From positions 1 through 55,371 of the forward strand of contig VFFB01000006.1 in the NCBI GenBank assembly GCA_018882585.1: a stretch of 55,371 nt of DNA, written 5' to 3'. Every line of letters starts with the position of its first letter. Position 1 is the first letter of the stretch. A model generated the notes under the pieces. It was not told where the DNA came from and did no database searches. It was given only the letters and a program-made list of their open reading frames with translations. Both the position numbers and the translations under genes were made by a program. This document shows, one piece after another, positions 330 to 48,300 of this stretch. The DNA comes from Candidatus Kapaibacterium sp. (lineage in GTDB: Bacteria; Bacteroidota; Ignavibacteria; Kapaibacteriales; Kapaibacteriaceae).

Positions 330-1577
330 ATGAAACTCTCTCTGACAAAACAGATCTTCCTCGGCCTGATCCTTGGCGGCGTCCTTGGCTACGTCGCCCC
401 GGAGTTCAGCACAGGCATTGCCTGGCTGCGCGACATCTTCCTGCACCTCATCAAGGTGATCATTGCCCCCTTGGTATTCTCGACCGTGGTGGTGGGCATT
501 GCCGGAGGGGGCAGTGCAAAGGCTGTTGGTAGAATGGGTGTGAAGTCGCTGGTCTACTTTGAAGTGGTCACAACCCTGGCGCTCTTCCTTGGCCTGCTGG
601 TGGTGAACGTGGTGCAACCCGGCAATGGCATCACGCTGGTGGGCGACCCGGGAACGCTGGGGACGATCGCGCAGCATCATCCGAAAACGCTGATCGAGAC
701 GATTGTGCACATCTTCCCGTCCAGCATCATCGACTCGATGGCCAAGGGCGACGTGCTGCAGATCGTGACGTTCTCGGTGATCTTTGCCATGGCCGTCGCC
801 TCGGTTGGCGAACGCGCCCGGCCTGTCGTCGAGTGGTGCGAGGCGCTGGCGCAGACGATGTTCTCGTTCACGAACATCATCATGAAGTTCGCCCCCATCG
901 GCATCGGCGCTGCCATGGCGGCTACGATCGGACATCAGGGTCTTGGCATTCTGGCAAACCTGGGCATGCTGATCGGCGCCTTGTACGCGGCGCTGATCCT
1001 GTTCGTTGTGATCGTCCTTGGCGCCGTGATGCTGATCGCACGCGTTCCAATTAAGCCCTTCCTGCGAACGATCCGCGAGCCGTTCACGCTGGCCTTCGTT
1101 ACAACGTCAAGCGAGAGCGCGCTGCCCATGGCCATGGAGAAGATGGAGGCCTTCGGCGTGCCCAAGCGTATCGTGGGCTTTGTGATGCCGGCAGGCTATT
1201 CGTTCAACCTTGACGGCACAACGCTCTATCTATCGATGGCAAGCGTTTTTGTGATGCAGGCCGTAGCGTCGACCGTGCCCGGATTCACCTTTGGCATCGA
1301 ACAGCAGATCGGCATGATGCTGGCGCTGATGATCACGTCGAAGGGCGTTGCCGCCGTGCCACGCGCCTCGCTCGTCATCCTGCTGGCAACGCTGTCGAGC
1401 TTCCTGCCGCCAAACCTGCAGCATTACGGACCGATTGCCGTGGCGATGATCTTCGGCGTGGACGAGCTGATGGACATGGCCCGCACATCGGTGAACCTTA
1501 TGGGCAACTGCCTTGCCACCGTCGTGGTCGCCCGTTGGGAAGGCGAATTCGACGATGAAAAGGCAAAGGCTCTTTAA
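330..1577 (+). CDS. Dicarboxylate/amino acid:cation symporter (DAACS family)
   Basis: This 415-residue inner-membrane protein is full length for the GltP/DctA family, which couples uptake of glutamate, aspartate or C4-dicarboxylates to H+ or Na+. Family signatures are visible in order: the serine-rich re-entrant loop TTSSESALP (about residue 257), the FNLDGT motif in the substrate/cation site (about 292), the second hairpin loop SKGVAAVPRAS (about 337), and the polar NLMGNCLA helix (about 389). Both re-entrant loops and the Asn/Asp residues are intact, so transport activity is expected. Glutamate and dicarboxylate cannot be told apart by eye. It stands alone, divergent from the MFS gene and convergent with the secreted protein ending at 1606. 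Confidence 0.93.
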   Translation: MKLSLTKQIFLGLILGGVLGYVAPEFSTGIAWLRDIFLHLIKVIIAPLVFSTVVVGIAGGGSAKAVGRMGVKSLVYFEVVTTLALFLGLLVVNVVQPGNGITLVGDPGTLGTIAQHHPKTLIETIVHIFPSSIIDSMAKGDVLQIVTFSVIFAMAVASVGERARPVVEWCEALAQTMFSFTNIIMKFAPIGIGAAMAATIGHQGLGILANLGMLIGALYAALILFVVIVLGAVMLIARVPIKPFLRTIREPFTLAFVTTSSESALPMAMEKMEAFGVPKRIVGFVMPAGYSFNLDGTTLYLSMASVFVMQAVASTVPGFTFGIEQQIGMMLALMITSKGVAAVPRASLVILLATLSSFLPPNLQHYGPIAVAMIFGVDELMDMARTSVNLMGNCLATVVVARWEGEFDDEKAKAL

Positions 1578-1605: not shown

Positions 1606-3744
1606 TTACCGCGCCACGACGAATCGTGCCGATAATCCCGTGCGCACCCCCTTGATGACGTAGGCACCCGGGTCGAGCGACGTCACATCGATGTTGCGCT
1701 CGGCATCAATGGTGTGCGTGCCAAGGATCCTGCCTAACGCATCGACAACGACGTACGTGTCGTGGGCGGGCACGCTGACGTTGATGGACGTCGCCGCCGG
1801 ATTCGGCACAAGGTGCACGCTGCCTGCCACGAGCGGGACGTCCTGCTCGACGCCTGTGACCTCGCCGTCAGGGAAGCGCAGCAGATAGCGCTGCCACGTT
1901 TCTGCACTCCATTGCGCAAGCACTTCGTTGGTATCACCCTTCGGACGAAGGATCAACGCATCACCCTCCATATACTCGGCAGTGGTGATGATCGAGCCGT
2001 CGCCACCTGGATTGAACATCTGCTGGCACACGCCGTCATGCGTCACGACAATGCGATTACCGTTGAGTGGAATGCTGTCGAGTTCCTTCCAGCGCTGAGC
2101 CGATGTGCTCTCGGCTCCGCCCGGTCCGCCGCGACCACCGCCGGCCCAACGTCCCTGCTTGTCGACGCGACCCCACATGAGCTCTGCCATTTCCCAGCAG
2201 CGGCAAACCGTGCTTGCGATGACGTCGCCGACGGGAATACCAAGTGCGCGCTGGTGCAGACCGATCTCGCGAGCCTGCTCGCGTCCTTCGTAAATCAGGT
2301 TACGTCCCGGGAAACACTCGGGCGACGGCCCTGGGTCTTTCTGTCCCCAGTCGGTCTTGGCATGTCGATACATGAACACAAGTTTCCCTTCACGCATCTC
2401 CGACATCAGGTCTTTGAACCACACTCGGTCCTCGCGCTGATTTTCGTAGGCACCAAGGTCGACCTTGCGGCCGACAAGGCGCGGATTGCCCACGATGTCG
2501 GTCTGATGGTGATTCACGAAGCCATCGATGAAGCCTCCGTTGTAGGCCTGCGAGATCAACTGCAGGTAGAGCCCATCATCGTCGGTTCCGTAGATGCGAT
2601 CCTTCCCTGCCGGATTGTCGATATCGACAAACTGCGGGTCGGCTTGATAGAAGCCGAAATCCCAGTCGTTGCGCACAAGGTTGGCAGTGGGCGTGATCTT
2701 GGCATTCAGGCCCGTCGTATCAAGCTGTTCAACCTGCTTGATCTCGGCCGCATCGTCGCCCCATAGGATCGAGTTGAGGATCTGCCCGGCATGCATGGCA
2801 ACAGCGGCACCAAAGCCGCCGATGTTGGCATACAGGTTACGGGAGAATGTTGTGTTCACGATGTATGGCTTGCAGGCCTTCGTGGCATAGATGGCGCCGC
2901 CCTTGGCACCGACGCCCGTGACCTGGTTACCGGCAAAAACACAGCTGGAGACGTACGGGATATCGTGATTGTCGAAGGCCACCGCACCGCCCGCATCGCG
3001 CGCCTCGTTGTTCACGAAGAAGCTCTCGCGCAGATAGGCCGCCGGCCCCTTGGCCAACGTATCGTTCGTGATGTAGGCAGCACCACCTGTGATGGCCCAG
3101 TTGCGCTCAAAGACGCAGTAGTTCAGGGCCATGCGTCGGACGTTCGTGGCATGGAGGGCACCACCAACGGTGGCAGAGGCGTTGTACAGGAAGCGACAGT
3201 TCCGAAAACGAGGAGTGCCAGTACCGATGATGGCACCACCACCACCTTCGATGTCGGCATTGCCGCGCACGATGGTAAGCCCGTTGATGATCGTCGTAGA
3301 ATCGATGGCCTCGCCTCGCAGGTCAAGGATGTGACGCGAGTTATCGGACCGACGAGGATCGTCGGCCTTGATGGCGTCACCGTCGTTATTTTCGAGATCG
3401 CCATTCAGCACCGACGGGTAGCGAAACCAGTCGCGCAGCTCGCGCTTCGGCTCACCCATCTTGAAGCCGCCATAGATAAGCATCCCCTGGCGGATCATGA
3501 ACGAGGCCGTGCGATCGCCACGCGTCCGCCCCTCGCCTTCGTCGGCACGGTACGTTCCTTGGGCCACCCAGATCTGATCGCCCGGCTTCCAGGCGTCCAG
3601 CGCCGACGTCAGGTAACGATAGGCCGTGGTCCAACCCTGACCGTCGCCTCCGGCTTCGGCAGCCGAGGCAACGTAGAGCGTATCGGCATGCACGACGGCG
3701 CTACCGACAAGCAGCAAACAGGCAAGAAGAAGTGTGCGCATCAT
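1606..3744 (-). CDS. Secreted beta-helix / histidine phosphatase fusion with T9SS sorting domain
   Basis: This 712-residue exported protein has an unusual domain order. A signal peptide (MMRTLLLACLLLVGSAVVHA) leads into a right-handed parallel beta-helix region (about 20-430) rich in Asn/Gly turns such as GGGGAIIGTG. A histidine-phosphatase (phosphoglycerate-mutase-like) domain follows at about 455-630, with RHAKTDW, an Arg in STVCRCWE and a late His in VTHDGV, so the RH/R/H catalytic set is kept. It ends with a T9SS-type sorting module (PNPAATSINVSV near its start, SLDPGAYVI near its end). The ATG at 3744 is preferred to an upstream TTG because GAGGTC sits just before it. It lies 48 bases downstream of another T9SS protein. 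The phosphatase substrate is unknown. Confidence 0.8.
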   Translation of the reverse strand: MMRTLLLACLLLVGSAVVHADTLYVASAAEAGGDGQGWTTAYRYLTSALDAWKPGDQIWVAQGTYRADEGEGRTRGDRTASFMIRQGMLIYGGFKMGEPKRELRDWFRYPSVLNGDLENNDGDAIKADDPRRSDNSRHILDLRGEAIDSTTIINGLTIVRGNADIEGGGGAIIGTGTPRFRNCRFLYNASATVGGALHATNVRRMALNYCVFERNWAITGGAAYITNDTLAKGPAAYLRESFFVNNEARDAGGAVAFDNHDIPYVSSCVFAGNQVTGVGAKGGAIYATKACKPYIVNTTFSRNLYANIGGFGAAVAMHAGQILNSILWGDDAAEIKQVEQLDTTGLNAKITPTANLVRNDWDFGFYQADPQFVDIDNPAGKDRIYGTDDDGLYLQLISQAYNGGFIDGFVNHHQTDIVGNPRLVGRKVDLGAYENQREDRVWFKDLMSEMREGKLVFMYRHAKTDWGQKDPGPSPECFPGRNLIYEGREQAREIGLHQRALGIPVGDVIASTVCRCWEMAELMWGRVDKQGRWAGGGRGGPGGAESTSAQRWKELDSIPLNGNRIVVTHDGVCQQMFNPGGDGSIITTAEYMEGDALILRPKGDTNEVLAQWSAETWQRYLLRFPDGEVTGVEQDVPLVAGSVHLVPNPAATSINVSVPAHDTYVVVDALGRILGTHTIDAERNIDVTSLDPGAYVIKGVRTGLSARFVVAR

Positions 3745-3792
3745 GCGACCTCGTGCAACGTTGAACGTCAAACTGTCCGGAACAAAACCATG

Positions 3793-5883
3793 CTACCGAC
3801 AACAAACCGTCACTTGCGTTACGGTTACTGTATGCGGCGACTCGACAATGCAATGATACATACCTTGCGCCAGACCATCCATGTCAATGATCATGGTTGC
3901 ACTGATACGCACTGCCCTGCCCTGCATGTCAACCAGCTTCATGGTACAAGGGGCAGTGGCAGACACGTGCAATTCACTGCCGTGGCGCACTGGGCGGTAC
4001 TCGTCCGACGTTGGCGTCACCACGTCCACGCCCGTTGTCACACGCGGAACGCGTATCACACCTTCGGGTGTGAGCAGGTGGTAGTATCCCGGTGTTGTTG
4101 CCACGCTGCGCACATCGTCGATGCCCATGGGTATAACGGTGCGCGTCCACGTGCGGCCGGCATCGGCCGTGACCCATAGCGCCTGCGGCGCAGGCGACCA
4201 GACGGCAAGTCCATCGGACGTTGAAGCAAGGGGCAGCTGCGACGCAAACGGCGGCGTATGCAGCGTCCACGATGTGCCGTCATCGTCCGTGATATACGCT
4301 GCGTCACCCGTCCAAACCACAACAGCAGCACCTGCACTACGCACGTCGAAGGTCCGCCAATTCACGTCGGCTTCCATCAGCGTGAGCAGGCGCCAGCCCG
4401 TCAGCTCCTCGCCCGTGCTGTCGCAGGCATAGCTGCGCAGGAACATGCGGTCACTCTGCTGGTCGTAAGCCAGAGCGACCACCACGACCACGCGATCCGT
4501 ACCGGCGATGCCAAGGATCTGTCCGTCGGCACCGTCGTTGGTGACGATGGTCCGCAGCGACTCCCACTGCGAGGAACCGTCCCGGCGGATCTTTAGGTCA
4601 CGTCCCTGCCAGATGACGTCGCTATTGCCAAGGCGGGTCACGGCATAGACCGGCTGGCCGGTCACCTCGACGCGCGAAGTGCGCGTTGCAACGTCGAACG
4701 ACATCGTGCTTTCGCCACCATAAGTCCACACGCGGCCACGATACACCGTCGAACGACGCTGCTGCTCATCGCCGTAGCGCACTGATACAACGGCCGAAGG
4801 CGCAGGCGCATCGCCCCATATCACCATGCCGCGAGATGCGATGTCGACCCATGAATCGGCGTAGACGACAAGATCATTTACACCGAGAAGTGGCTCGGTT
4901 GTGAGCGGAGCAACGAGACCGGTATTGAAGGCCGATGCCGTTGCCGAGGGGATGTTCCATGTGAACGGACCGAAGCCTTCTTTGCTGCACAGTGCTGTGG
5001 TGTCGGCTGTGGCCCAACACCGAAGCGGCATACGGGCCGACATCGCGGCGTTGCGTTGCCATGCCAGACCATCGACTGACGTGAAGATGCCGCTTGGCAT
5101 CACAATGTACCAGCGTCCGGATGCATACATCACGTCGAGCGGATATCCCAGGTCGGCCGACGGATACGGCAGCACCATGGTCTGCACCGGCACAGAAACT
5201 GATCGCAGCGTGTCGTGCTGCCAACGTCCAACACGACCATCGCGCATTGTCGTCACATACGTTGCCAGCGAATCATACTCCGGCTCCCACATACCTATTG
5301 GGCCTGATCGCATATCGATGCGCCAAACATCACCCTTGGGCGCGGCACCCGACGTGCTGGCATAGGCGGCGATCCAGCATGATTCGGCACTCGATGCAAC
5401 GTCGATCGTGCTGGTACAGGGGATCGGCGACGACAGGTAGCGCACGGTGTCGGCCTCGACGTCATACAGTGACATCACGACCAGATCACCCTCGCAGTCA
5501 TGAATGGCAACAACGACACGGCCGCCATGCACGACGGCAAGTACATTGGGTACGGCCAGCGTTGACTGCCACGACATGCCTGCGTTATGTGTGATGCGGC
5601 AAGAATCGGCGGCATCGACAAGGACGACGGTATCACCGTTGACATAGATGGAAGAGCTGGTGCGGGGCATGTATGGCAGGCGTTGCCATGTTGTATCGCG
5701 GCCGTCCGGACGCATTGCCCGATGATAGGCGCGCTGACCGGACACCATCACAACCCTTCCGCCACCCTCGACCATGAACTGCACGTCAGCGCCCGTCGGA
5801 ACACGCAAGGTGTCGACACCCTGTCCTGCCGCCTGCATAACGGCAACAAGAGCAAGGATCAGGCAGGGGGCAATGCGAAACAT
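3793..5883 (-). CDS. Secreted beta-propeller-like protein with T9SS sorting domain
   Basis: This 696-residue exported protein begins with a signal peptide (MFRIAPCLILALVAVMQAAG). Most of its length consists of repeated beta-strand blades of the BNR/sortilin kind: recognisable segments are ITHNAGMSWQSTL, ITDDDGTSWTLH and VTADAGRTWTRT (Asp-x-Gly-x-x-Trp boxes). The final about 75 residues look like a sorting domain, with strand pattern MKLVDMQGRAV and DGLAQGMYHCIV. The frame stays open upstream into rpoC, but the signal peptide fixes the start at 5883. It probably forms a transcription unit with the beta-helix/phosphatase gene. Its ligand or function is not evident; sortilin-type propellers usually bind proteins or sugars. 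Confidence 0.75.
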   Translation of the reverse strand: MFRIAPCLILALVAVMQAAGQGVDTLRVPTGADVQFMVEGGGRVVMVSGQRAYHRAMRPDGRDTTWQRLPYMPRTSSSIYVNGDTVVLVDAADSCRITHNAGMSWQSTLAVPNVLAVVHGGRVVVAIHDCEGDLVVMSLYDVEADTVRYLSSPIPCTSTIDVASSAESCWIAAYASTSGAAPKGDVWRIDMRSGPIGMWEPEYDSLATYVTTMRDGRVGRWQHDTLRSVSVPVQTMVLPYPSADLGYPLDVMYASGRWYIVMPSGIFTSVDGLAWQRNAAMSARMPLRCWATADTTALCSKEGFGPFTWNIPSATASAFNTGLVAPLTTEPLLGVNDLVVYADSWVDIASRGMVIWGDAPAPSAVVSVRYGDEQQRRSTVYRGRVWTYGGESTMSFDVATRTSRVEVTGQPVYAVTRLGNSDVIWQGRDLKIRRDGSSQWESLRTIVTNDGADGQILGIAGTDRVVVVVALAYDQQSDRMFLRSYACDSTGEELTGWRLLTLMEADVNWRTFDVRSAGAAVVVWTGDAAYITDDDGTSWTLHTPPFASQLPLASTSDGLAVWSPAPQALWVTADAGRTWTRTVIPMGIDDVRSVATTPGYYHLLTPEGVIRVPRVTTGVDVVTPTSDEYRPVRHGSELHVSATAPCTMKLVDMQGRAVRISATMIIDMDGLAQGMYHCIVESPHTVTVTQVTVCCR

Positions 5884-5944
5884 GCAGTGATGGCGCAATG
5901 ATGTCGAGAGATGTCCAAGCAACATGCGTGGTATGGAATGCCTT

Positions 5945-5985
5945 GAAAACAAGAGGCCCCTCAGCGATGATATCGTTGAGGGGCC
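5945..5985 (-). terminator. Rho-independent terminator after rpoC
   Basis: A perfect 9-bp stem (5955-5963 with 5977-5985, GGCCCCTCA / TGAGGGGCC) encloses a 13-nt loop. On the minus strand it is followed by a T-rich tract (TCTTGTTTTC, 5954-5945). It sits 29 bases after the rpoC stop codon and closes the ribosomal protein/RNA polymerase operon. Confidence 0.9.
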
Positions 5986-6013
5986 GTGTGATTCGTGCTT
6001 CGTTCTACCAGCC

Positions 6014-9000
6014 TTAGGCTTGTGCCGGCTTCTTTCGTGCAGGCTTGCGTGCAGGCTCTTCGACAGGCTCCTCGACCATCGGAATGATGGCTTCGGCACC
6101 AAAGATATTGCCGACGGCGCTGCTGACAAGCATTTCCTGATAGCTGCGCAGACCCGTACCGGCCGGGATGAGCTGACCAAGAATGATGTTCTCCTTCAGA
6201 CCCTGCAGACGGTCGGACTTTGCAGCTGCCGATGCATCAGCCAGCACGCGTGTCGTCTCTTGGAAGGATGCTGCGGACAGCCACGACTCCGTCGTGAGCG
6301 ATGCCTGCGTGATACCCAGCAGGAGCGGCTCGCCAATGGCGGGCTCGGCAACCCGGCTACGTGCGATTTCCTTCTCCTTCTTCTTCAGCTCGGCATTCAC
6401 TTCCTTCAAGATGCGCTTATCAACGATCTGACCGACCTTGAACTTGCTGTCGCCCTTATCGGTGACAACAACGCAGGCCTTGAGGTGCTCGTTCTCATCC
6501 GTGAAGCGCATACGGTCGACCTGGTCGCCTTCGAGGAATTGCGAGTCGCCGGAGTCTGTCACGCGTACCTTCTGCAGCATCTGGCGGACGATCACTTCGA
6601 TGTGCTTGTCGTTGATCTTCACACCCTGCATGCGGTACACTTCCTGGATCTCGTTCACCAGGTACGACTGCACCTCGTTGATACCCTTGATGTGCAGAAT
6701 GTCGTGCGGGTTGATGGCACCTTCGGTCAGACGGTCGCCGGCGCGCACAAGGTCGCCTTCCTGCACAAGCACGTGCTTACCGATCGGCACACTGTAGTCG
6801 CGCTTCATTTCACCGTCGAGCGACGTCACCGTCAGCACGCGCGAGCCGCGCTTCGGCTTGTCGATCGAAACGATACCGTCGATCTCGGCAACCGCTGCAG
6901 GCGCCTGCGGTGCGCGAGCTTCAAACAGCTCGGTAACGCGCGGCAGACCGCCCGTGATGTCGCGCAGACGACCAAGGTCGCGAGGCATCTTCACAAGCTT
7001 CGAACCAACGCTCACCACTTCGCCATCGTCCACTACGATCTGTGCACGCGTCGGAATGATGTAGCTCTGGATCAGCACGCCTTCGTCGTCGACGATCTCG
7101 ATTGCAGGGCTCTTCGTGCGGTCACGCGAGTCAGTCACGATCTTCGCCGTGTGACCCGTCTGCTCGTCGATTGCTTCCTTGTACGTCAGGTTCGGCACCA
7201 GGTCGCGATAGCGAACACGACCCGACTTTTCCGTAATGATCACGGCGTTGTACGGATCCCATTCGTACAGCGTGTCGCCCTTCTTGATCTTGTCGCCTTC
7301 CTTGACCTTCAGTTCGGCGCCGTAAACGGCATCGTACTTCGTCAGAATGCGGTTTGATTCAGGCTCGATGATGTTGATGACACCGGCACGCGAGACAACA
7401 ACGTTGATCTCTTCGAAGTCGCCTTCGTACGACACATAGCGGATGTTCTCGAACTGCACCACACCGTCGAACTTGGCTTGGGCCAAGCTCTGCGACGACG
7501 ACAGCGAAGCCGTACCACCCGTGTGGAACGTACGGAGTGTAAGCTGCGTACCAGGCTCACCGATGGACTGCGATGCGATCGTACCCACAGCCTCGCCGGT
7601 ATCGACAACCTGGCCGGTAGCCATGTTTCGTCCGTAGCACTTGGCGCAGACGCCACGACGCGACTCGCAGGTAAGAACCGAGCGAATCATCACCATTTCG
7701 AGCGATGACTGCTCGATCTCGGAGGCGATCTCTTCGGTGATCACTTCGCCCTTCTTCACAAGCATCTTGTTCGTAAGGGGGTCAACGACGTCCATCAGCG
7801 ACACACGTCCAAGGATGCGCTCGTACAGCGGCTCCTTCACGTCCTCGCCATCCTTCAGGGCCCGCATCTCCACGCCGCGGATCGTTCCGCAGTCGTCAAC
7901 GGAGATCACCATGTCCTGTGCAACGTCGTGCAGACGGCGTGTGAGGTAACCGGCGTCGGCCGTCTTGAGAGCCGTATCGGCAAGACCCTTACGGGCACCG
8001 TGCGTCGAGATGAAGTACTCAAGGATGGTCAGACCTTCCTTGAAGTTCGAGATGATCGGGTTTTCGATGAGTTCGGCGCTCGATGCCGTGGCCGTCTTCT
8101 GCGGCTTGGCCATCAGACCGCGCATACCTGCAAGCTGACGGATCTGCTCCTTCGAACCGCGAGCCTGCGAGTCCAACATCATCCAGAATGTGTTGAAGCC
8201 ATCAAGGTTTGTCTGCAGTTCGCTGTAAAGCTTATCGGCAACACGGTTCGTTGCCGTCGACCACATGTCGATGATCTTGTTGTAGCGCTCGCCTTCGGTG
8301 ATCACACCCGAGTGGTAATAGTCCTCGATCTTATCGACTTCCTTCTGGGCACTATCGATGATCTTTACCTTTTCGTCGGGCACAACAACGTCGGCGATCG
8401 ACACGCTCAAGCCACCGCGCGTTGCCGTTGTGAAGCCGGCCTCCTTGAGCTTGTCAAGGAATTCGACGGTCTTTGCAAGGCCAGCCTTGCGGAAGCACAG
8501 CGAGATGATCTGACGCAGACGCTTCTTGGTGAGCAGCTCGTTCAGATAGCCGATCTCAGACGGTACGATCTGGTTGAACTGGATACGACCGACAGTGGTT
8601 TCGACCAGCTCGGAAACACCAGGGATACGAACCTTGACCTTGGCGTGCAGGCTGATGCGCTTGCTGTTGTAGGCAATGATGACCTCGTCGGGTGACGAAA
8701 AGATCTTGCCTTCGCCGAGCGCGCCGCGACGAACCTTGGTCAGATAATACGTACCCAGAACCATGTCCTGCGACGGAACGGCGATCGGCTCGCCATTCTG
8801 CGTGTGCATGATGTTGTGGGCCGACAGGATGAGCAGCAGTGCTTCGAGCTGGGCTTCGTGGCTCAGCGGCACGTGCACGGCCATCTGGTCACCGTCGAAG
8901 TCAGCGTTGAAGGCCGTCGTCACAAGCGGGTGCAGCTGGATGGCCTTGCCTTCGATCAGCTTGGGCTGGAAGGCCTGAATACCCAGACGGTGCAGCGTGG

Positions 9001-10300
9001 GAGCACGGTTGAGCAGCACCGGATGTCCGTCGATCACCTTGTCGAGAATGTCCCACACTTCGGTGGTCTTCTTCTCGACCATCTTCTTGGCACTTTTTAC
9101 CGTCTTGCAGTGACCGCGCTCGATGAGTTTGCGGATGACAAGCGGCTTGAAGAGCTCGACGGCCATGTCCTTCGGAAGGCCGCACTCGTACAGCTTCAGC
9201 TCGGGGCCGACAACGATGACCGAACGGCCTGAGTAGTCAACGCGCTTACCAAGCAGGTTCTGACGGAAGCGACCCGTCTTACCCTTGAGCGTATCGGCGA
9301 GCGACTTGAGTGCACGCTGTGATTCGCTGCGGACGGCACGACGCGAGTTATCGAACAGCGCGTCAACAGCCTCCTGCAACATGCGCTTCTCGTTCCGCAG
9401 GATCACCTCGGGCGCCTTGATGTCGATCAGGCGCTTCAGACGGTTATTGCGGATGATGACGCGACGGTACAGGTCATTCAGGTCAGACGTAGCAAAGCGG
9501 CCGCCTTCAAGCGGCACCAGCGGACGCAGGTCCGGCGGGATCACAGGGATGATGTCGAGGACCATCCATTCGGGACGGTTCGGCTCCTTGCCTTCGCCAC
9601 TTCGGAACGCGTCAAGAATGCGCAGTCGCTTCAGCACGTCGGCCTTCTTGGCCTGCGAAAGGTCTTCGCGGGCAACGTCGCGCATGCGGTAGTAGTCTTC
9701 GTCGGCATCAACACGGCGCAGCAGTTCCTTCACGGCTTCGCCGCCGATCAGGGCGATGAACTTGCGCGGGTCCTCGTCGTCCATGTTGCGTTCTTCCGGA
9801 CGCAGGTTGGCAAGGACGTCAAGGTACTGATCTTCCGTAAGCAGGTCCTTGGGCTGCAGGCCCGTCGAACCTGGCTGGATCACGACGTACGATTCGTAGT
9901 AGACGATCCGCTCGACATCCTTGGTTGGCATGCCGATCACGCCCGAGATCTTGCTGGGGAGTGAACGCAGGAACCAGATGTGGACAACGGGAACGGCGAG
10001 CATGATGTGTCCCATGCGCTCGCGGCGCACGGACTTCTGCGTCACCTCGACGCCGCAGCGGTCGCAGACGATTCCCTTGTAGCGAATTCGCTTGTACTTA
10101 CCGCAGGCGCATTCCCAATCGCGAATCGGACCAAAGATCTTTTCGCAAAACAGACCGTCCTTTTCCGGACGGAACGAACGGTAGTTGATCGTTTCCGGCT
10201 TCGTCACTTCACCGTGGGAACGGTTCAGGATGTCATCCGGCGACGCAATGCGAATCGTGATCTGCGAGAAGCCACGCTTCGGAATGAATTGATATTGCAT
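6014..10300 (-). CDS. rpoC: DNA-directed RNA polymerase beta' subunit
   Basis: The 1428-residue catalytic beta' subunit assembles with beta, alpha, omega and sigma. Visible hallmarks are the N-terminal zinc-binding cysteines in [13 protein letters not shown] and CDRCG (about 61-80) and the universally conserved NADFDGD Mg2+-binding loop (about 462-468). The second zinc site has [11 protein letters not shown] (about 875), followed by the trigger-loop region [18 protein letters not shown]. The C-terminus carries a lineage-specific tail rich in Pro, Glu, Arg and Lys. A GTG directly precedes the chosen ATG; GAGG five bases upstream of GTG-ATG fits either start. It lies 47 bases downstream of rpoB and ends at a strong terminator. 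Confidence 0.99.
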
Positions 10301-10347
10301 CACAACCTCGTGAGATTTTTTCGTGTAGTAGAGAGGCGGCCGGCAGA

Positions 10348-14172
<3,825 letters not shown>

Positions 14173-19878: not shown

Positions 19879-22779
19879 TCACCGTTCGAGATGCATGATC
19901 GGCAGCGACCGCACGGTTCCGCCCGCAGCGACGCGCACAACGTAGGCACCCGAGGCCAACGACGACAGGTCTGTCTCGGCAAATGCATCATGCAACATCG
20001 TCCGCAACGCAACACTTCCGTCAAGTGCCACGATCTGGACATCACTGCCGTTGGGCGCATATGTGCGCACCGTTCCGGAAGCACCGTCGTGAACGATGCG
20101 GATAGCAACGGCATCGTGTTCGCCGACCGACGTCGGCACGCGCACGTAGCGCAGCATGAACCACGGCGTAGCAGCCTGGGCCGTGTTGATCGTGAACGTG
20201 AACCGGCCAAGTGCCGAGGGTGCAACAGTGCGACTCCAGCCCGACGGACGACCGTCAGCCCCCAAGGCCTGCACCAGCAAACTGTCGGCACCGCCACTCG
20301 GCATGGTCAGACGCATCGTCGCGCCCTCCATCTGCGTGGCTCCACGACCGTACTTCGAGAGTTCATTCGTAGCGACATCGAACTCGGCTCCTTCGTTAAG
20401 CGCCCGCGTCGAGATCACCATGAGTGCCTGCGACGCAACATCCAACGGCAGACTATCAAGCGACGTCAGCGCAACAGTGGCGTGACCGGCGCCAGCTGTC
20501 TGCTCGACGCGCATCGGTCCAACGTCATGGATCTCGCCCTGCAAGGCTCCCGTTACGCTGATGGATCGTGGCGTGACCAAGCGGTATACACCAAGGTCGG
20601 AATTCCAGAAGATCTGTTCATTCTCGGCGTCGAGCTGACGTCGATCTACATCACCGGTCAGCACCGATATCTCACGGTGCGGCAGGAAACTGCCAACTGC
20701 CTGGGTACCGCGCTGCATCTCGACCGTGCGGAAGAGCGACATTCTCTGGTCAGAGTAGACGTTCAGGAAGAAGGGCTGGGTAAAACGCCGTGGATATTCC
20801 AGGGCTTCGTTCGCAACGGCGATGGTGAGCTTCTTGGTCGAGGCAGCAACATCACCTCGGCGCAGACGCAGGGCTGTTGCCGGCATCAGCGCAAGAACGT
20901 TCGGCTTGTTGTAGAGCTCCCAGATCTGCGCCGAGTCGATGCGCGTTGCCGCATAGACAGGGGCGCCGCTGAAGACGCCCTGCACAACGCCGTCCCAGTC
21001 GTGAAGGCCGGCATATCCCGGAAGGAATGCCATCATGTCGTTTTGAAACGAACGAGGGAACTGAATGGATGCGTGATGGACGATGTGGGCCTTGCCCGCC
21101 TGTGCTAGCTGGACGTGCGAGTAGAGTCCGGCGTCAGATGTCTCGTTCAGTATCGGCACCTGCGTCGTCCGCCACTCCGTCGACGAGGTGATGTCAAAGC
21201 TGTCGGCGGCAACGTTCTCCCAATGCGACACGAAGCGAAGGCTCGGACACAGCAGCATGTCGCTCTTGAGCGTATCCCGTACAAGCTTGTACACGCCATC
21301 GAACAGACTGGTCAACTGCTCACGGTAGAATCCGGCCACATCCTTCATTCGCGCCGGCGACACGTCTTCTTCCCAGAAAAGATTCCGCCGGATCTTTCCG
21401 GCTGCGACACTCTCACCTGCGGCAAGACCCTCGTGCCCGATCTCGACAAAGCGGACGTCGTCAAGATAGACGTCGCCGGAATCTGCACCGCAGAAGAACG
21501 CCAGCGCCGCCGTCGCCTCATCTGTCGAGATGCTCGTGAATGTAATGTCAAATCGCTGCCACGTCGACGTCAGCGTGAGGTCTTTGTTCAGCCCATAGTT
21601 GTCGTACGGATAGGTGCTGTTGAAGGCATAGACCATCATGCTCCGCTGTCCGCGCTGCGGCGTCGTCCGCGCCCAGAATGTGAGTCTGTGTCGGCTGCTT
21701 CGCTTAAGTGGACTGATGCTCTGCGACAGGATGATGTCGAAGGGCTGCCGTGATGCACCAAGCTTGCCGACACGCAAGCGATAACACGACGTTCCCTCCT
21801 TGACATCAGAATCGCTGATCTGCTCGACGGCCTGCGCGCCGCCCGTGGTATTCACGCCAAGCGTCCATGCTGCCGAGAACGGATCCTCGAATCCACCGTT
21901 CTTCAATCGGTTCTCGGTCGACGCGGGTTGCGTGCTCCAACGCGTCTGCAGCGCAGCGTCTGTCGTGGCCCCCTTGTTCTTCATTGATGCAATGAAGAGC
22001 GAATCGATCAAGGCAACCTGCTGCGATCCAAGGTTCACGGAACCGTAGATATTCTCACGGCTGACATCTTTCGAATACAACCAGTATACAGCCAACGACG
22101 CATCCTCGAAGGCAATGGCATAAGGCATTGCGGGCTCATCCTTGTAGGCATTACCCGTAAAAGGGTTTACATGTTCGAGCACGGAACGCATCATGTTGCG
22201 ATGGATCTGCTGTGCCGTGCGGTCGAAGAAGATGGGTACACGGCATCCCCAGCCGACGGAGTCGTACTGACGCACGCCGTCATCCGGGAGCGGCTGCCAC
22301 GCAGCATAGAAGGTCAGCACGGAGTAGATCCCCTGCTGCTTGAGTTGATGCATGAACCAGTCAAACCGTCGCATTCGTTCGGCATTCACGCCTCCGGTCG
22401 TTGTGCCACCGTCAAAGAAACTTATGGGAGGAACAAGAACGTAGTCGAAGCCGGTGAAGCGTACAAGGTTGACGCCCAGAGCGCGCAGACGACGCGCCGT
22501 AGCAATGGCGGTCGCGCTGTCGGGGAAGCATCCTCCGAACTGGATCGTCACCCCATACAGTCGCAAGCGCTCGCCATCGGCCGAAACAAGATGGCCGTCG
22601 TCCGACAGCTTCACCCGGCCTTTGGCACCGGCCGGCTCGACAGGCCCAAGCAGTGCCGTATCGATCTGTACCGTCGGCCCAAATGCAAACGGATAGGGGT
22701 CGGTAAGGGGCTGTGCGAACACTGTGGGTGCAAGACAAAGAAGTGCAAGTGCGGCCACGACTGCAAGGCGCTGAAGCAT
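19879..22779 (-). CDS. Secreted glycoside-hydrolase-like protein with CBM and T9SS sorting domain
   Basis: This 966-residue exported protein has a signal peptide (to about residue 22). It continues into a TIM-barrel region resembling GH5/cellulase-like proteins (RRLRALGVNLVRFTGFD, about 95-111; AFEDASLAVYW where related proteins usually show a Asn-Glu-Asn motif). A CBM4/9-like carbohydrate-binding module follows (KNGGFEDPFSAAW to VYLDDVRFVEIG, about 292-445), then the remainder of the barrel/accessory domains and a T9SS sorting tail (SLASGAYVVRV). It starts 4 bases after the DUF1501 gene, so the three genes 25779-19879 form one operon. The substrate is unknown, and the altered Asn-Glu-Asn region leaves catalysis uncertain. 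Confidence 0.7.
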   Translation of the reverse strand: MLQRLAVVAALALLCLAPTVFAQPLTDPYPFAFGPTVQIDTALLGPVEPAGAKGRVKLSDDGHLVSADGERLRLYGVTIQFGGCFPDSATAIATARRLRALGVNLVRFTGFDYVLVPPISFFDGGTTTGGVNAERMRRFDWFMHQLKQQGIYSVLTFYAAWQPLPDDGVRQYDSVGWGCRVPIFFDRTAQQIHRNMMRSVLEHVNPFTGNAYKDEPAMPYAIAFEDASLAVYWLYSKDVSRENIYGSVNLGSQQVALIDSLFIASMKNKGATTDAALQTRWSTQPASTENRLKNGGFEDPFSAAWTLGVNTTGGAQAVEQISDSDVKEGTSCYRLRVGKLGASRQPFDIILSQSISPLKRSSRHRLTFWARTTPQRGQRSMMVYAFNSTYPYDNYGLNKDLTLTSTWQRFDITFTSISTDEATAALAFFCGADSGDVYLDDVRFVEIGHEGLAAGESVAAGKIRRNLFWEEDVSPARMKDVAGFYREQLTSLFDGVYKLVRDTLKSDMLLCPSLRFVSHWENVAADSFDITSSTEWRTTQVPILNETSDAGLYSHVQLAQAGKAHIVHHASIQFPRSFQNDMMAFLPGYAGLHDWDGVVQGVFSGAPVYAATRIDSAQIWELYNKPNVLALMPATALRLRRGDVAASTKKLTIAVANEALEYPRRFTQPFFLNVYSDQRMSLFRTVEMQRGTQAVGSFLPHREISVLTGDVDRRQLDAENEQIFWNSDLGVYRLVTPRSISVTGALQGEIHDVGPMRVEQTAGAGHATVALTSLDSLPLDVASQALMVISTRALNEGAEFDVATNELSKYGRGATQMEGATMRLTMPSGGADSLLVQALGADGRPSGWSRTVAPSALGRFTFTINTAQAATPWFMLRYVRVPTSVGEHDAVAIRIVHDGASGTVRTYAPNGSDVQIVALDGSVALRTMLHDAFAETDLSSLASGAYVVRVAAGGTVRSLPIMHLER

Positions 22780-22783
22780 GACG

Positions 22784-24346
22784 TTAGCGACGGACGGTGA
22801 GGAAACTATGGGCTGTATATCGGTCGGCCGTCAGGGTGACGACATAGGTTCCTTGCGAAAGCCCACGAACGTCCATCTCGCAGAGGCCCGACCATGCGTC
22901 GACACCTGCGGTGCGAACGACGCTACCCGCCATGTCTCGCACGGTGATGCCGGCAGTACTCAGCGGCGGAACGTCGACGCGGATGCGCACGCGATCGACG
23001 GCAGGATTCGGACCGATCGAGGTTATGGCCACGGGCATCGGACGCGACGTGTCGTTGCCCACCGATGAAACGTTGAACAACGGTAGCGCCTTGGCAGCGA
23101 AATCCTTGAACAGGACGTTCTGCGCAAGTGTAGATGGCGCTCCAAGCCACTGCAACAGCACAGACGCATAGATATCGCGATAGTCATATCGCATCAGCAT
23201 GTCGCCCCGATCGTCGAGGTCGGTCAAACTTGGATGCGCACCGTAGACACCACCGTTGACGTGCTTGCCGAAGACGAAGAGCGGAGCAGCCGTGCCGTGG
23301 TCTGTACCCTGACTGCCGTTCTCCATCACCCTGCGTCCAAACTCGCTGAACGTCATACCGGCAACGCGTTCGTCATGGCCCTGCGCCTTCATGTCGGCCA
23401 TGAAGGCCGTCACGGCTTCGGAGAGCTCGCGCAGCAGATTCGCATGCGTTCCTGCGACGCCCCCTTGATTGGCATGCGTGTCGAAATTGAAGCCGGCCCA
23501 CGATAACAGATAGATCCGCGAGGATAGACCGCCACTGATAAGCTGGGATACAACTTTGAGTTTCGTGCCAAGGTCCGACGTGGGATACGACACCGTTGTC
23601 TTGCCTTTATCGGCAGCCTGTTTGACAACCTTGGCGTAGACATTCGCCGAGCGGGCCACGTCGCGCATGAAGGCAATCTCGCGGCCGGCCGGCGTGTCAG
23701 AAGCCGGACCTGACGGCACCTCTTCGGACGAACCCGTATTCACCAGACGGTAGAACTCGTCGGGATCACGGAAGCTGATGCCTACAGCACCTTGTGAGCC
23801 AAGCAGACCCAGCGAGATCGACGTGCCGATCTGAATTGCCAATGGATGATCGGGCAGCGTAGCCGGATAGCCCGGCGCAAGCGTTTCGAGGTACCTACCA
23901 AGCCATCCCGTACTTGCAAAGACATCGGCATCCGTGGCCGTCAGCCAGATGTCGGTGCCCCTGAAGTGCGACCTGTCCGGATTCGGATAGGTCACGCCCT
24001 GTACGATGGCCATTGTGCCTGCATCGAAGGCATCACGGAAGCCCTGCATTGCAGGATGCCAGCCAAGGTCATCGTTGATGCGAAGTGCACTGCTCTTGGG
24101 AATGGCAATGGTAGGACGGTCGGTGTAGTACTTGTCGATGGTGATGGGCACGACCGTGTTCAGACCGTCATTGCCACCGGCCATCTGGATAAGCACCAGG
24201 ATCCTGTCTCCCGAGCCGAGCAACTTGTCGATCGCGTCGTTGCCGTGCGCAAGAGCGCGCATACTGAGGGAGTCAACGACGCCGGGAAGCGTTGCAAGAG
24301 CGATGCCGGTGCGGCCGGCGTTGCGAAGAAATCGACGGCGATCCAT
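22784..24346 (-). CDS. DUF1501 family exported protein with T9SS sorting domain
   Basis: This 520-residue protein begins MDRRRFLRNAG, a twin-arginine-like signal. It carries the DUF1501 core (sulfatase/phosphatase-fold relatives) with VLIQMAGGNDGLNTVVP, HFRGTDIW, GMTFSEFGRRVMENGS and GTDHGTAAPLFVFG. It ends in a sorting domain (PNPAVDRVRIRV; GLSQGTYVVTL). The ATG at 24346 has GAGGA upstream; the frame extends further but only into the previous gene. DUF1501 and DUF1800 genes are commonly adjacent in Bacteroidota, Planctomycetes and Proteobacteria. The enzymatic role is not established. Confidence 0.9.
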   Translation of the reverse strand: MDRRRFLRNAGRTGIALATLPGVVDSLSMRALAHGNDAIDKLLGSGDRILVLIQMAGGNDGLNTVVPITIDKYYTDRPTIAIPKSSALRINDDLGWHPAMQGFRDAFDAGTMAIVQGVTYPNPDRSHFRGTDIWLTATDADVFASTGWLGRYLETLAPGYPATLPDHPLAIQIGTSISLGLLGSQGAVGISFRDPDEFYRLVNTGSSEEVPSGPASDTPAGREIAFMRDVARSANVYAKVVKQAADKGKTTVSYPTSDLGTKLKVVSQLISGGLSSRIYLLSWAGFNFDTHANQGGVAGTHANLLRELSEAVTAFMADMKAQGHDERVAGMTFSEFGRRVMENGSQGTDHGTAAPLFVFGKHVNGGVYGAHPSLTDLDDRGDMLMRYDYRDIYASVLLQWLGAPSTLAQNVLFKDFAAKALPLFNVSSVGNDTSRPMPVAITSIGPNPAVDRVRIRVDVPPLSTAGITVRDMAGSVVRTAGVDAWSGLCEMDVRGLSQGTYVVTLTADRYTAHSFLTVRR

Positions 24347-24354
24347 GGTCTTCC

Positions 24355-25779
24355 TCACATCAGTTGATACTCGGGCATTCGAACGATGGCCTGCAGCAGT
24401 CCGCGCACGCGAACGGCAGCGCCGGGCGTGTCGATGTCCCATTCGTAGTCCGGAATGCCGGATAAGAGGATCTCAAGTAGGACTGCTCGCTGTTCCTGCG
24501 TCGTAGGCACGGCAAGCATGACCTTGCAGGTCGCTTCGACGATCTTCCGCGGATCGTCGGCATTGGCAATGGACTTGGCAAAGGCAATTGGGTTCGGCGC
24601 AACGGGCTGGCCCGAGCCGTCCGTCAACGATGCTCCTGATGCCGTCTTGCCAAGAATGAAATTCTCGGCAAACCGCTGGCGCAACGGGAAGGTCGAGCTC
24701 GTGATCCAGCTATGCCAGCCCTTCCAACCTTCGACGCTCGGCGGATAGAAGATCTCCTGCCCCAGCTGCGTCATCACGGCCAGCATGGCCGTAGGATGAA
24801 CTTCAAGCATGCCATACTGCGCGGCCAAGCCGACGACAAGGTCGGCCGGAGCTTTAATGATCGCTCCACGCACGGCCGTCTCGTAGAAGGCGTTCGACGT
24901 CAGCAGCGTGGTAAGCACGGACTGCATGTCGTAGTCGGCCGAACGGATCACCGTTGCGAGTGCGTTGATACTGTCGTCGCTGGGGTGCTGCTCGACGAAG
25001 GTGCGGAAGAGTTTCCGCGCCAGGAAGCGCGGGCAGGCCTGCTGCTCGAGCGTTATGCGCACCACGTCCTGATAGTCCCAGGAGCCCGTCTGCCCAAGGA
25101 TGGTCTTCGTATCACGGTCTGCAAGCTGCGCATTGTATACGCCGTCCAATCCTGCGACGCGCCAGCCGGTGAAGGCACGCGACGCTTCGACGATGTCACG
25201 TTCAGAGTAGTTGCCGATGCCGAGCGTGAAGAGCTCGAACCATTCGCGTCCGAAGTTCTCGTTCGGATTGCCCTTGATGCTCTGATTACCGTTCAGATAG
25301 ATCAGCATGGCAGGGTCGCCGACCACCTTCGTCGCCAGCTCCCGGAACGACCCGACGGCATACTGTCTGAACAGCTGCGACTGCTTATACAGGTACTGCG
25401 CAACGTAGACGGTGATGTAGTCGGCCGTGAAATGGTTGTGCCAGAACAGCACCATGCGCTCTCGAAGAGACGGTGTACCGATGGCATGTCGGTACCACCA
25501 CGTCTGCAACTCCGGCCACAACCGGGCATACTCCGAAAAAGGTTGCCCCTGCTGCGGAGGTGTCGTTGCCCACGAAGGTGGCGGCACCGTAGCCGTCTTC
25601 GACAGCAGGTCTGCGACCGCCGCAGCCGGCGTCTGACCCATGTAGCGCAAGGCCAGCGCATTGGTTGGTTGCAGCGTCGCGCGACGCACAAGGTGCATCG
25701 CATCGTCGTACGACAGCGGCTCCTGCCGCTGCGTCAGGTCGGCAACCGCAAGTCGCGGTTTTTCGTCAAAGCTGATCAT
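24355..25779 (-). CDS. DUF1800 family protein
   Basis: This 474-residue member of DUF1800 shows the family signatures HLVRRATLQPT, LRERMVLFWHNHFTAD (about 106-121), NENFGREWFELFTLGIGNYSE (about 177-197), ARKLFRTFVEQ and PPSVEGWKGW. No clear signal peptide is visible at the N-terminus. It is the first gene of the DUF1800-DUF1501-glycosidase-like operon, with 8 bases to the next start. The function of the family is unknown, although its conserved pairing with DUF1501 implies a joint exported complex or activity. Confidence 0.93.
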   Translation of the reverse strand: MISFDEKPRLAVADLTQRQEPLSYDDAMHLVRRATLQPTNALALRYMGQTPAAAVADLLSKTATVPPPSWATTPPQQGQPFSEYARLWPELQTWWYRHAIGTPSLRERMVLFWHNHFTADYITVYVAQYLYKQSQLFRQYAVGSFRELATKVVGDPAMLIYLNGNQSIKGNPNENFGREWFELFTLGIGNYSERDIVEASRAFTGWRVAGLDGVYNAQLADRDTKTILGQTGSWDYQDVVRITLEQQACPRFLARKLFRTFVEQHPSDDSINALATVIRSADYDMQSVLTTLLTSNAFYETAVRGAIIKAPADLVVGLAAQYGMLEVHPTAMLAVMTQLGQEIFYPPSVEGWKGWHSWITSSTFPLRQRFAENFILGKTASGASLTDGSGQPVAPNPIAFAKSIANADDPRKIVEATCKVMLAVPTTQEQRAVLLEILLSGIPDYEWDIDTPGAAVRVRGLLQAIVRMPEYQLM

Positions 25780-45274: not shown

Positions 45275-45354
45275 CGGAATCATCCGTAACATTACGTCTC
45301 TGAATTCGTCACTGACGTGCCACACATCGGTCATCGTACTTGAGAAGGATCACC

Positions 45355-48300
45355 ATGCGACTGTTCGTCCAAGCGAGCCTCGTCGTTCTCGTCGGCTGCC
45401 TTGCGGCCACCACCTCGCTTGCAAAGAGCGATGCATTCATCGTCTACATGCCGTCGAAGCAACTGGCGAACGGATATACGACCATGCCCCGCGCCATCAA
45501 GGTCACGCGTCCTGCGGAAGGCACCTATGTGCCCGGCATCGTCATCGTCAAGACACGTGCCTCGTACCGTGTGGGCAAAGGCGAGCAGACGCTTGCAAGT
45601 GCGACGTTGGCGCCCGTCCTGGACTACATGCAGACGCGCAGCGTCGAGCATGCCATGGTGCCGGCAACGAAAACGAACGAACCGGACATCGTTGCAGCCG
45701 GTATTGACCGCATCTACCGCATCGCGTATAACGAGCCCATCGAGCCGTTCGACCTCTGCAAACGCCTGATGGAAAACCCTGACGTCGAGTACGCCATGCC
45801 CGAGCGCATCTTTCAGCCGATGTATACGCCGAATGACCCGCGACTGGCAAGTCAGGGTTACCTGACGCCGATGAAAGCAGCGGCAGCATGGGACGTTACC
45901 AAGGGATCCAAAGACGTGATCGTGGCCATCGTTGATTCTGGCTTGGACTGGACCCACGAGGATCTGGCGGCGAACATCTTCTCGAACAAGAAAGAGATCG
46001 CCGGGAATGGCAAGGATGACGACGGCAACGGCTACGTCGACGATGTGCGCGGCTGGGACTTTGTTGGCAACGTAACGCTTCAGGAAGTCGCCGGCGGTAC
46101 GCTGAAGCCCGACAACGATCCGAAAGTCACGGGTAGCATCGACGACCGCAAAGGGCACGGCACAACAGTCGGCGGCTGTGCTGCCGGCATCGGCGACAAT
46201 GGAAAAGGCATTGCCGGCCTTGGATTCGGCGTAACGATCCTACCCTGTAAGATCGGCTCCGACAACTCGTCATTCGCCGGTTTGCTGCAAGGCTACCAAG
46301 CAATTCAGTATGCCGCCGACATGGGGGCCCACATCATCAACTGCAGCTGGGGTGGTCCCGGCATGGACCCGGGCGCGCAGGAGATCATTGACTATGCGAT
46401 CAGCAAGGGTTCACTCGTTGTTGCCGCTTCCGGCAATAGCGGTGTTGATACAGACCAGTTCGAGTTCACTCCCGCCTGTCTTGACGGAGTGCTAAGTGTA
46501 GGCTCGACGGACAACAATGATCGTGTAAGCAGCTTCTCGAACTACGGCTGGCGGATGACAACCTTCGCCCCTGGCCAGAGCATGCTGTCGACCTTCCCGA
46601 ACAATCAGTACCGGGCGGCCGACGGAACGTCATTCTCGTCTCCCGTCGTGTCTGGCATCTGTGCCCTTGTCAAGTCGATCCATGCAGACTGGACGCCACA
46701 GCAGATCATGGCGCAGATCCGTGGCACGAGCGATGCCATGGCAAGCGTGCCGCCACAGAACCGCCCCAAGTATTGGGGTCGCGTGAACGCCGAACGCGCC
46801 GTAAAGATCAATCGCCTGTGGACATCCGGCGAGCGCATCCCGGGACTCATCGTCTCGAACTTCCGCGTTGGCAGCGGCACGGCAATCACGAAGCGCGAAC
46901 CGACCGACGTCGTGGTCACGGTAAAGAACGTCCTTGCCGATGCTTCTACGTCAACCGTCGAGATCGCATCGCTTGATTCGCGTGTCACGATCGTTTCCGG
47001 CAGCAGCACGAATTCCGGAGCACTGCCACGCGACGGCAGCAGAGACATTACCGTACGACTGCAACCAAGTGCGAACTATCCGTGGTATGAGGCAAGTGTG
47101 CCGTTAGCCGTCACCATGCGCAGCGGAACATACAGCAACCTGCAGGTGGTGTCGATCCCGCTGCGTCTTACATCGAATAACGCGTTGGTCCTGTCAGGTA
47201 ATGCCGACGGACTCTTGTTCACCAACGCCAAGAACGTCGGAAACAGCGAGATTTGGGGCACGGCAATTGCGTCGAATGGGCAGAATGCCTGGTACCGCAT
47301 TGCGTCCGGCCGGATATCGGCCAATGCACTTTCGTTCAAGCCGGTGGCCTTCGACGCCGTTGCTGGAAAGGGCATCATTGGCGGCATGAACAGTTCGACG
47401 CCGACGATCGCCCGCTACTCCGGTGGATCGTGGCCGGCCACGAACGTCGCGGCCATCGCTTCGTCTGTCATCGGTATTCACATGCGTTCCGCCAATGAAG
47501 GTGTCTTCATCGGCGATGCCGTTACGAATCGCTTTGGCGTTGGCCGGTCCACCGATGGCGGCGTCACGTGGACTGCCTATGGAACGGCTCCGCAGATCCT
47601 GACCGGCGAGAAGCTGCGTCCGAACGTGTACTTCTTTGATGGCGACAACATGTGGTTTGTCACGACCAATAATCGCATGGGACGTTCTACCGACGGCGGC
47701 AAGACGTGGCAGATGAGCACCATGGGACTCACGGGTGCCACCCCCATTGCCGTTGCCTTCCGCGATGCCACGAACGGCCTGCTGCTGTACTCTATCAGCG
47801 GAGGGTACAAACTCGCCTCGTCGATCGATGGCGGCACGAAATGGACAGCGCTGCCGACCGACCTCAAGCCCCTCGGTGCCGATCCACTGACCATCTCGAG
47901 CTCGGGCGATCATCACCTGATCGTTTGCAAGGACGGTGCGGTGTTTGGTACGGATGACAATGGTGCGACGTATCAGCCTGTACTTTCGATGGAACAGATG
48001 CAGCCTTTGAACTCCGCCCGCGCGCAGAAGTTCACGAGTTCGACCGTTGTCTTTGCAGGACAGATGGTAACAACGCTCACGTATCGCTACAACGGGCCCA
48101 ACGGAACGAAGATCCTCGAATCAACACAGACAGCTGTCAATTTCGACACACTGACGCCGCAGCAGGGACGCAATCGCTTTGTTACCGTGCGGAGCACGGG
48201 CACCGGCACTGCCACGATCGACAGCATCAGGATCATTCCGTCGTCCGGCGTCAGCGACACAGCCTTCAAGGTCACAAACACACCCAGCACCACCATCGAG

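Follow-up and report, generated by a model that had tools for sequence, protein, structure and literature searches.

A predicted type IX-secreted surface phosphatase that joins a beta-helix to a histidine phosphatase domain in Kapaibacteriaceae

What would a bacterium do with a histidine phosphatase carried on the same polypeptide as a beta-helix and a signal for type IX secretion (T9SS)? This question is raised by one gene in a window of 55,371 nt (the whole stretch of DNA analyzed here: contig VFFB01000006.1 of assembly GCA_018882585.1, Candidatus Kapaibacterium sp.), for which a sequence-only reading had proposed that a beta-helix, an apparently active histidine phosphatase and a T9SS sorting domain occur in one chain. 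The family, order and phylum named below are those of the source organism. We found profile matches to all three parts in the window protein and among 17 orthologues, and the gene product is probably a T9SS-exported cell-surface phosphatase with a beta-helix stalk and a SixA/PRK06193/PmrG-like domain. The reading frame on the minus strand opens with an ATG at 3744 and runs without interruption to its stop codon at 1606, and the chain is organized as follows:

1606..3744, minus strand: complete gene, 712 amino acids and a stop codon; ATG at 3744 preferred as start over an in-frame TTG upstream at 3771
3685..3744, minus strand: hydrophobic, signal-peptide-like N-terminal segment, residues ~1-20 (boundary set by eye; predicted helix 2-17)
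2440..3684, minus strand: right-handed parallel beta-helix, residues ~21-435, the last stretch choice-of-anchor-Q-like (profiles and full-length model)
1867..2418, minus strand: histidine phosphatase domain, branch 1, residues ~443-626 (profiles and domain model)
1609..1827, minus strand: T9SS type-A C-terminal sorting domain, residues ~640-712 (TIGR04183; profile match over 647-701)

The N-termini of the orthologues are hydrophobic as well and are followed by an invariant Asp-Thr.

The identity of the central domain was assessed from profiles and from predicted structures. Two PRK06193 models match the window protein (E = 1.1e-17 and 1.6e-13), both far under the model cut-offs. The PmrG model (NF052369) matches residues 442-605 (E = 4.8e-4; 19.6 bits against a cut-off of 170) and Pfam His_Phos_1 stays under its gathering score (14.3 vs 21.7 bits; E = 0.033). 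When the 17 orthologues were scanned at E ≤ 0.01, PRK06193 was matched by all of them, PmrG by 13 (best E = 8.9e-10) and His_Phos_1 by nine. The SixA model TIGR00249 was absent from the matches of the window protein up to E = 1, and the SixA likeness is therefore one of fold only. No branch-2 histidine phosphatase Pfam model was matched by the window protein or by the scanned orthologues, and searching PDB sequences by phmmer with the entire protein returned nothing but a weak match to Nup192 (E = 0.71). The model of the isolated domain, built from 17 sequences, reached a pLDDT of 84.9 and a pTM of 0.83. Foldseek ranked RosC first (E = 2.5e-8), followed by PGAM5, alr0221, SixA-annotated and MutT1 entries, and VIA-align gave tied results for SixA (1ujb; Z 14.6, rmsd 3.2, 145 residues aligned) and RosC (8s6q, 9emu; Z 14.2, rmsd 3.5, 155 aligned). 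A domain search and a structure prediction had been proposed as checks by the sequence-only reading, and both bear it out: the region is predicted to fold as a histidine phosphatase. A non-phosphatase fold was rejected on the basis of this confident model, which has SixA, RosC and PGAM5 among its nearest solved structures. By its residues and its modeled alpha/beta fold, the domain is a member of the branch-1 histidine phosphatase superfamily; these outweigh the shortfall against His_Phos_1, whose gathering score is a usual rather than a strict criterion.

We then considered the residues on which catalysis would depend, using 20 aligned proteins, of which 17 are fused orthologues, one is cut by a contig end and two are the short T9SS-tailed phosphatases L026 and L029:

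2362..2367, minus strand: R460-H461, RH motif, H461 being the predicted phosphate-accepting nucleophile (20/20; aligned with the RH of PhoE)
2314..2316, minus strand: C477, invariant (17/17)
2203..2205, minus strand: C514, invariant, directly before R515 (17/17)
2200..2202, minus strand: R515, predicted second catalytic arginine, CRCWE motif (20/20; aligned with the second Arg of PhoE)
2035..2040, minus strand: H569-D570, predicted second catalytic His and an Asp, D570 being the candidate general acid (D in 16/17, E in 1/17)
1960..1977, minus strand: E590-x-x-E593-G-D595 motif (all three 17/17; E590 and E593 18/20, D595 20/20)

R460, H461, R515, H569 and D595 are invariant across all 20 proteins. 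When an 18-row profile of the domain was aligned with PhoE (1ebb) in HMMER, a weak match (E = 0.1), the RH pair and both later residues, the second Arg and His, fell opposite their PhoE counterparts, which we take to be catalytic in that enzyme. A misalignment of the catalytic Arg or of the late His was thus rejected on the invariance and on the PhoE alignment, and the apparently intact catalytic set announced from the sequence holds. Of the E-x-x-E-G-D motif, L026 and L029, which are short T9SS phosphatases of the order, keep only D595. C477 and C514 plausibly pair as a disulfide, judging from the sequences; similar cysteines are found in the exported relatives examined. We found no residue clearly equivalent to what we presume to be the general acid of PhoE-type enzymes: a Trp/Gly-rich segment follows Arg515 instead, so that turnover of ordinary phosphomonoesters should not be taken for granted. 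D570 may act as the general acid.

The same observation favors a reading in which catalysis was lost and the domain persists on an adhesin-like surface beta-helix as a module that binds phosphate ligands or plays a structural part. We consider this reading quite unlikely, since the four catalytic residues are invariant in 20 of 20 proteins and the phosphatase is the most conserved part of the chain: at 58.5%, its mean pairwise identity across the 17 orthologues exceeds that of both the beta-helix (46.8%) and the sorting region (27.2%). This argues for a retained function and against a decayed domain, and residues and model together make phosphatase activity a likely prediction.

The sorting-domain model TIGR04183 is over its cut-off in the window protein (26.5 vs 23 bits, residues 647-701) and also in the whole-genome search (31 bits), and in the orthologues the sorting domain was matched at E ≤ 0.01 by 15 of 17 sequences with the NCBIfam Por_Secre_tail model and by 14 of 17 with that of Pfam. 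The source genome encodes PorU (806 vs 420 bits; E = 1e-242), three PorV-family loci and SprA, all over their cut-offs. Among the sorting-domain matches listed in this genome, 80 of 87 are over the cut-off, including the window protein. For comparison, PorU, PorV and SprA were over the cut-off in none of 14 control genomes, and the sorting domain in one. The presence of PorU, PorV and SprA in the same genome renders the cell-surface location proposed by the sequence-only reading credible, and these profile matches make export to the surface likely. The window encodes further proteins with a T9SS tail or a match to one: a subtilase that also has BNR-type matches and HYDIN/ASH-like Ig matches (45340-48699, plus strand), and the CBM_4_9 and DUF1501 proteins of two adjacent genes (19882-24442, minus strand), both of which match the tail.

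The beta-helix is supported by profiles and by structure. The Beta_helix and choice_anch_Q models remain under their cut-offs in the window protein, whereas the POMP repeat is over its own (17.3 vs 15) and Beta_helix matches 15 of the 17 orthologues (E ≤ 0.01). The full-length model is of moderate quality (pLDDT 71.0, pTM 0.71), falling below 50 at the junction between beta-helix and phosphatase (398-440). With VIA-align, the beta-helix aligned with BT_1002 (5mqp_B; Z 26.0, rmsd 3.1, 293 residues aligned), with Pel9A (1ru4; Z 25.6, rmsd 3.8, 323 aligned) and with rhombotarget A (Z 24.1, rmsd 4.4, 317 aligned). It therefore shares its fold with polysaccharide lyases and rhombotarget A (9cdu, 9cdv, 1ru4, 5mqp; Z 24.0 to 26.0), at an identity of just 12 to 15%, and it also resembles the adhesin PfbA. 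Polysaccharide lyases of the beta-helix type have a conserved catalytic Lys. In a comparison by column conservation, no Lys was invariant within the beta-helix across the 17 rows. The sequence-only reading had suggested a polymer as target; because the lyase likeness is shared with rhombotarget A and PfbA, the beta-helix is not decisive on this point, and a common fold is no proof of a common function.

These parts suggest the following mechanism. The protein would be exported by Sec and then translocated by the T9SS, with removal of the C-terminal sorting domain, and the mature protein would end up either anchored on the outer surface or set free there. The beta-helix may form a rigid stalk, a role at which we can only guess, and possibly a ligand-binding surface, presenting the compact phosphatase domain. 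A phosphate monoester substrate would phosphorylate His461, with the phosphate bound by Arg460, Arg515 and His569, and water would then free inorganic phosphate.

A survey of the architecture in related genomes had also been proposed as a check. The fusion was found as a single ORF with no internal stops in 17 of the 23 family genomes (source included), one of which is the single-contig genome G005; in another, G018, a contig end removes the start of the ORF. That the source is a draft of 200 contigs speaks for an assembly chimera in which a beta-helix gene was joined to one for a phosphatase. We rejected a chimera, whose probability is negligible, since the same fusion occurs in the separate assemblies of 16 other family genomes. 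Elsewhere in the family, the phosphatase is truncated at a contig end in G012, the two halves of the fusion lie at the ends of two contigs in G015, and in G006 and G021 a piece of the beta-helix remains at the end of the contig that bears rpoC. In G010 and G017 we detected no piece of the fusion, nor the symporter that adjoins it in other genomes; there the rpoC match ends at most 5 bases from the contig end, having reached position 355 or 367 of the 400-residue query. Because these contigs end inside rpoC, the expected site is missing from the assemblies, and the absence is no evidence of real gene loss.

We extended the search beyond the family. A first scan of genome contigs with the single protein alone confirmed no relative. 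The full-protein search matched 32 of 60 genomes (source included); 22 of them belong to the family and 10 do not, and eight of these 10 were matched through beta-helix or sorting-domain stretches only. The domain profile matched 19 of the 23 family genomes and 27 of the 123 order genomes, namely these 19 and eight in one other family (f7, a sister family). Within a phylum sample of 395 genomes, in which the best eight candidates per genome were scored with this profile, it matched 14 (ten in the source family, two in f7 and two others). Related loci were sought with two short peptide patterns of the domain, and fusions outside the family are possible. The f7 genomes yielded ten ORFs from eight genomes (303-354 aa from stop to stop) that encode the phosphatase without a beta-helix. 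The sorting-domain scan took in eight of these ORFs (L029 and the second ORF of L061 were left out) and found the T9SS tail over the cut-off in seven, the exception being the second ORF of L100 (21.5 vs 23 bits). Two of the eight f7 genomes (G028 and G054) harbor short T9SS-tailed phosphatases in tandem (L061:1384-3234 and L100:1111-3003).

A search of the 395 phylum genomes with the short phosphatases as queries, scoring the best five candidates of each, matched ten genomes, of which G236, G172 and G213 were new outside the order. G213 (L082) was matched through its sorting domain only. G236 and G172 encode lipoprotein-like phosphatases without a beta-helix (L059 and L076). These belong to two other families of the phylum, and by eye they present a lipobox-like Cys and an extra N-terminal region before the phosphatase (L059:1099-2037 and L076:1054-2061). 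A Pelagibacter-labelled MAG contains tandem PRK06193-like phosphatases with signal-peptide-like starts, downstream of what appears by eye to be an integrase-like ORF (L048:3914-5051). The view that histidine phosphatases are usually cytosolic or simple periplasmic enzymes, on which the sequence-only reading had relied, is thus overstated: exported ones occur in f7, in L059 and L076, in the Pelagibacter-labelled MAG and in BtMINPP and PE_PGRS11. The distribution of the fusion in the family and of beta-helix-free phosphatases in f7 suggests that the fusion is an elaboration specific to this family, built on an exported SixA/PRK06193/PmrG-like lineage. The titled records are labelled, for example, Ignavibacteria bacterium or Candidatus Kapaibacterium, and some are apparently mislabelled (e.g., Bradyrhizobiaceae).

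The gene order of the window is rpoB (10351-14172), rpoC (6017-10303), a BNR-type gene (3793-5994), the phosphatase gene and a convergent symporter, with an MFS fragment at the window edge whose match is just under the cut-off:

330..1577, plus strand: DctA/GltP-type dicarboxylate symporter, convergent neighbor (conserved in synteny; a separate protein)

Synteny was compared across 16 family loci (L031-L046), leaving out the distant relatives L047 and L048. The end of rpoC lies upstream in 11 of the 16, the remaining five being truncated upstream by contig ends, and the convergent symporter lies downstream in 12 of the 16 at an identity of at least 72%. In L034 and L044 the symporter is less closely related (29% identity) and same-strand, and none was seen in L041 and L045. 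This conserved synteny suggests vertical and stable inheritance rather than a mobile cassette. The product of 3793-5994 (minus strand), between rpoC and the phosphatase gene, is a BNR/sortilin-like protein with a sub-cut-off match to a T9SS tail. ORFs of 700-733 aa occupy its position in L032, L037, L039 and L042, and in L034 and L045 the phosphatase gene directly follows the rpoC frame. A tblastn search with the BNR-type protein (E 1e-8) found no match in 20 other loci, some of them too short to hold the gene; from these sequences, this protein appears to be fast-diverging or replaced.

What the phosphatase would act on is a matter of conjecture. We would guess at a surface or environmental phosphomonoester, either a phosphosugar on the cell's own glycans or dissolved organic phosphate. 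One rival reading is a PmrG/Ais-like surface enzyme that tunes surface charge by acting on glycolipid or glycan of the outer membrane of the cell itself, with the beta-helix holding it at the glycan layer. The PmrG matches of 13 of the 17 orthologues, and a stable chromosomal locus beside rpoC, as expected of a core function, are in line with such a role; PmrG dephosphorylates heptose II of LPS (PMC8129183). However, the window protein itself is far under the PmrG cut-off. Moreover, the Pfam scan of 25 window ORFs (a subset that includes the phosphatase gene) recognized no LPS gene, and we regard this reading as improbable. The scan also detected no phosphate-uptake or organophosphate-use gene, which tells against the main reading and also against a second rival, a surface phytase or phosphomonoesterase that scavenges phosphate from dissolved organic phosphorus. 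Such a nutrient phosphatase would agree with predicted surface export and a histidine phosphatase fold. Branch-2 phytases are characterized by the motifs RHGxRxh and an HD proton donor, as defined in PMC7762957, and the latter is present as H569-D570. RHGxRxh is absent, however: the window protein has RHAKTDW, and RH-x-x-TDW is found in 18 of 18 rows. With no branch-2 Pfam match either, we hold scavenging to be about as doubtful as the own-glycan role, and the present data do not separate the two. The phytate or phosphoglycan substrate named by the sequence-only reading found no specific support, neither in the motifs nor in the neighbors (rpoC, the BNR-type gene, the DctA-type symporter and MFS).

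A bolder version of the surface phosphatase, which we put forward only tentatively, is a dedicated phosphate-editing device of the outer surface, fixed beside rpoC in the family, for which we came across no precedent. The beta-helix would capture a polymer or glycolipid and the SixA/PmrG-like domain would strip its phosphates, the Trp/Gly-rich segment and the E-x-x-E-G-D motif replacing the usual acid-bearing part. More generally, the locus presents a histidine phosphatase on T9SS cargo, joined to a beta-helix scaffold and syntenic across an uncultured family. If active, it would carry out phosphate editing or scavenging outside the cell with a fold mostly known from intracellular metabolism.

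Finally, we compared the protein with known systems. The best sequence match of the domain is with PRK06193 proteins (NF004842/NF004841, annotated "hypothetical protein"). Their members in L047 and L048 share C-x3-R-N-L ... C-R-C-W-E-T and a signal-peptide-like start with the window protein; those examined are, however, short and single-domain, with no beta-helix, and the window protein is far under the cut-offs of these models. PmrG/Ais, an exported branch-1 histidine phosphatase not known to have a stalk or a T9SS tail, matches weakly over most of the domain, below the cut-off of its model (NF052369, LPS core heptose(II)-phosphate phosphatase). The nearest solved folds, SixA (1ujb) and RosC (8s6q, 9emu), are short stand-alone chains at 13 and 20% identity. 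The phosphoglycerate-mutase domain of PE_PGRS11, which we presume to belong to the histidine phosphatase superfamily, offers a further parallel, but its carrier domain and secretion route are unrelated to those of the window protein. As described in PMC7550000, PE_PGRS11 is a surface protein of Mycobacterium tuberculosis in which this functional domain stands beside a repetitive domain. Likewise, PMC7762957 places BtMINPP, a histidine phosphatase of Bacteroides, in outer-membrane vesicles. In the open literature searched, we found no join of a beta-helix, a branch-1 histidine phosphatase and a T9SS tail; histidine phosphatases did not appear with type IX secretion, and with a beta-helix only in one reference list. 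All the parts are known, so that the surprise is moderate, and it is their combination that is new. The short T9SS phosphatases of f7 (L026, L029, L061 and L097-L101) share the domain family and the export route but have no beta-helix, and they constitute a tractable comparison for the fused protein.
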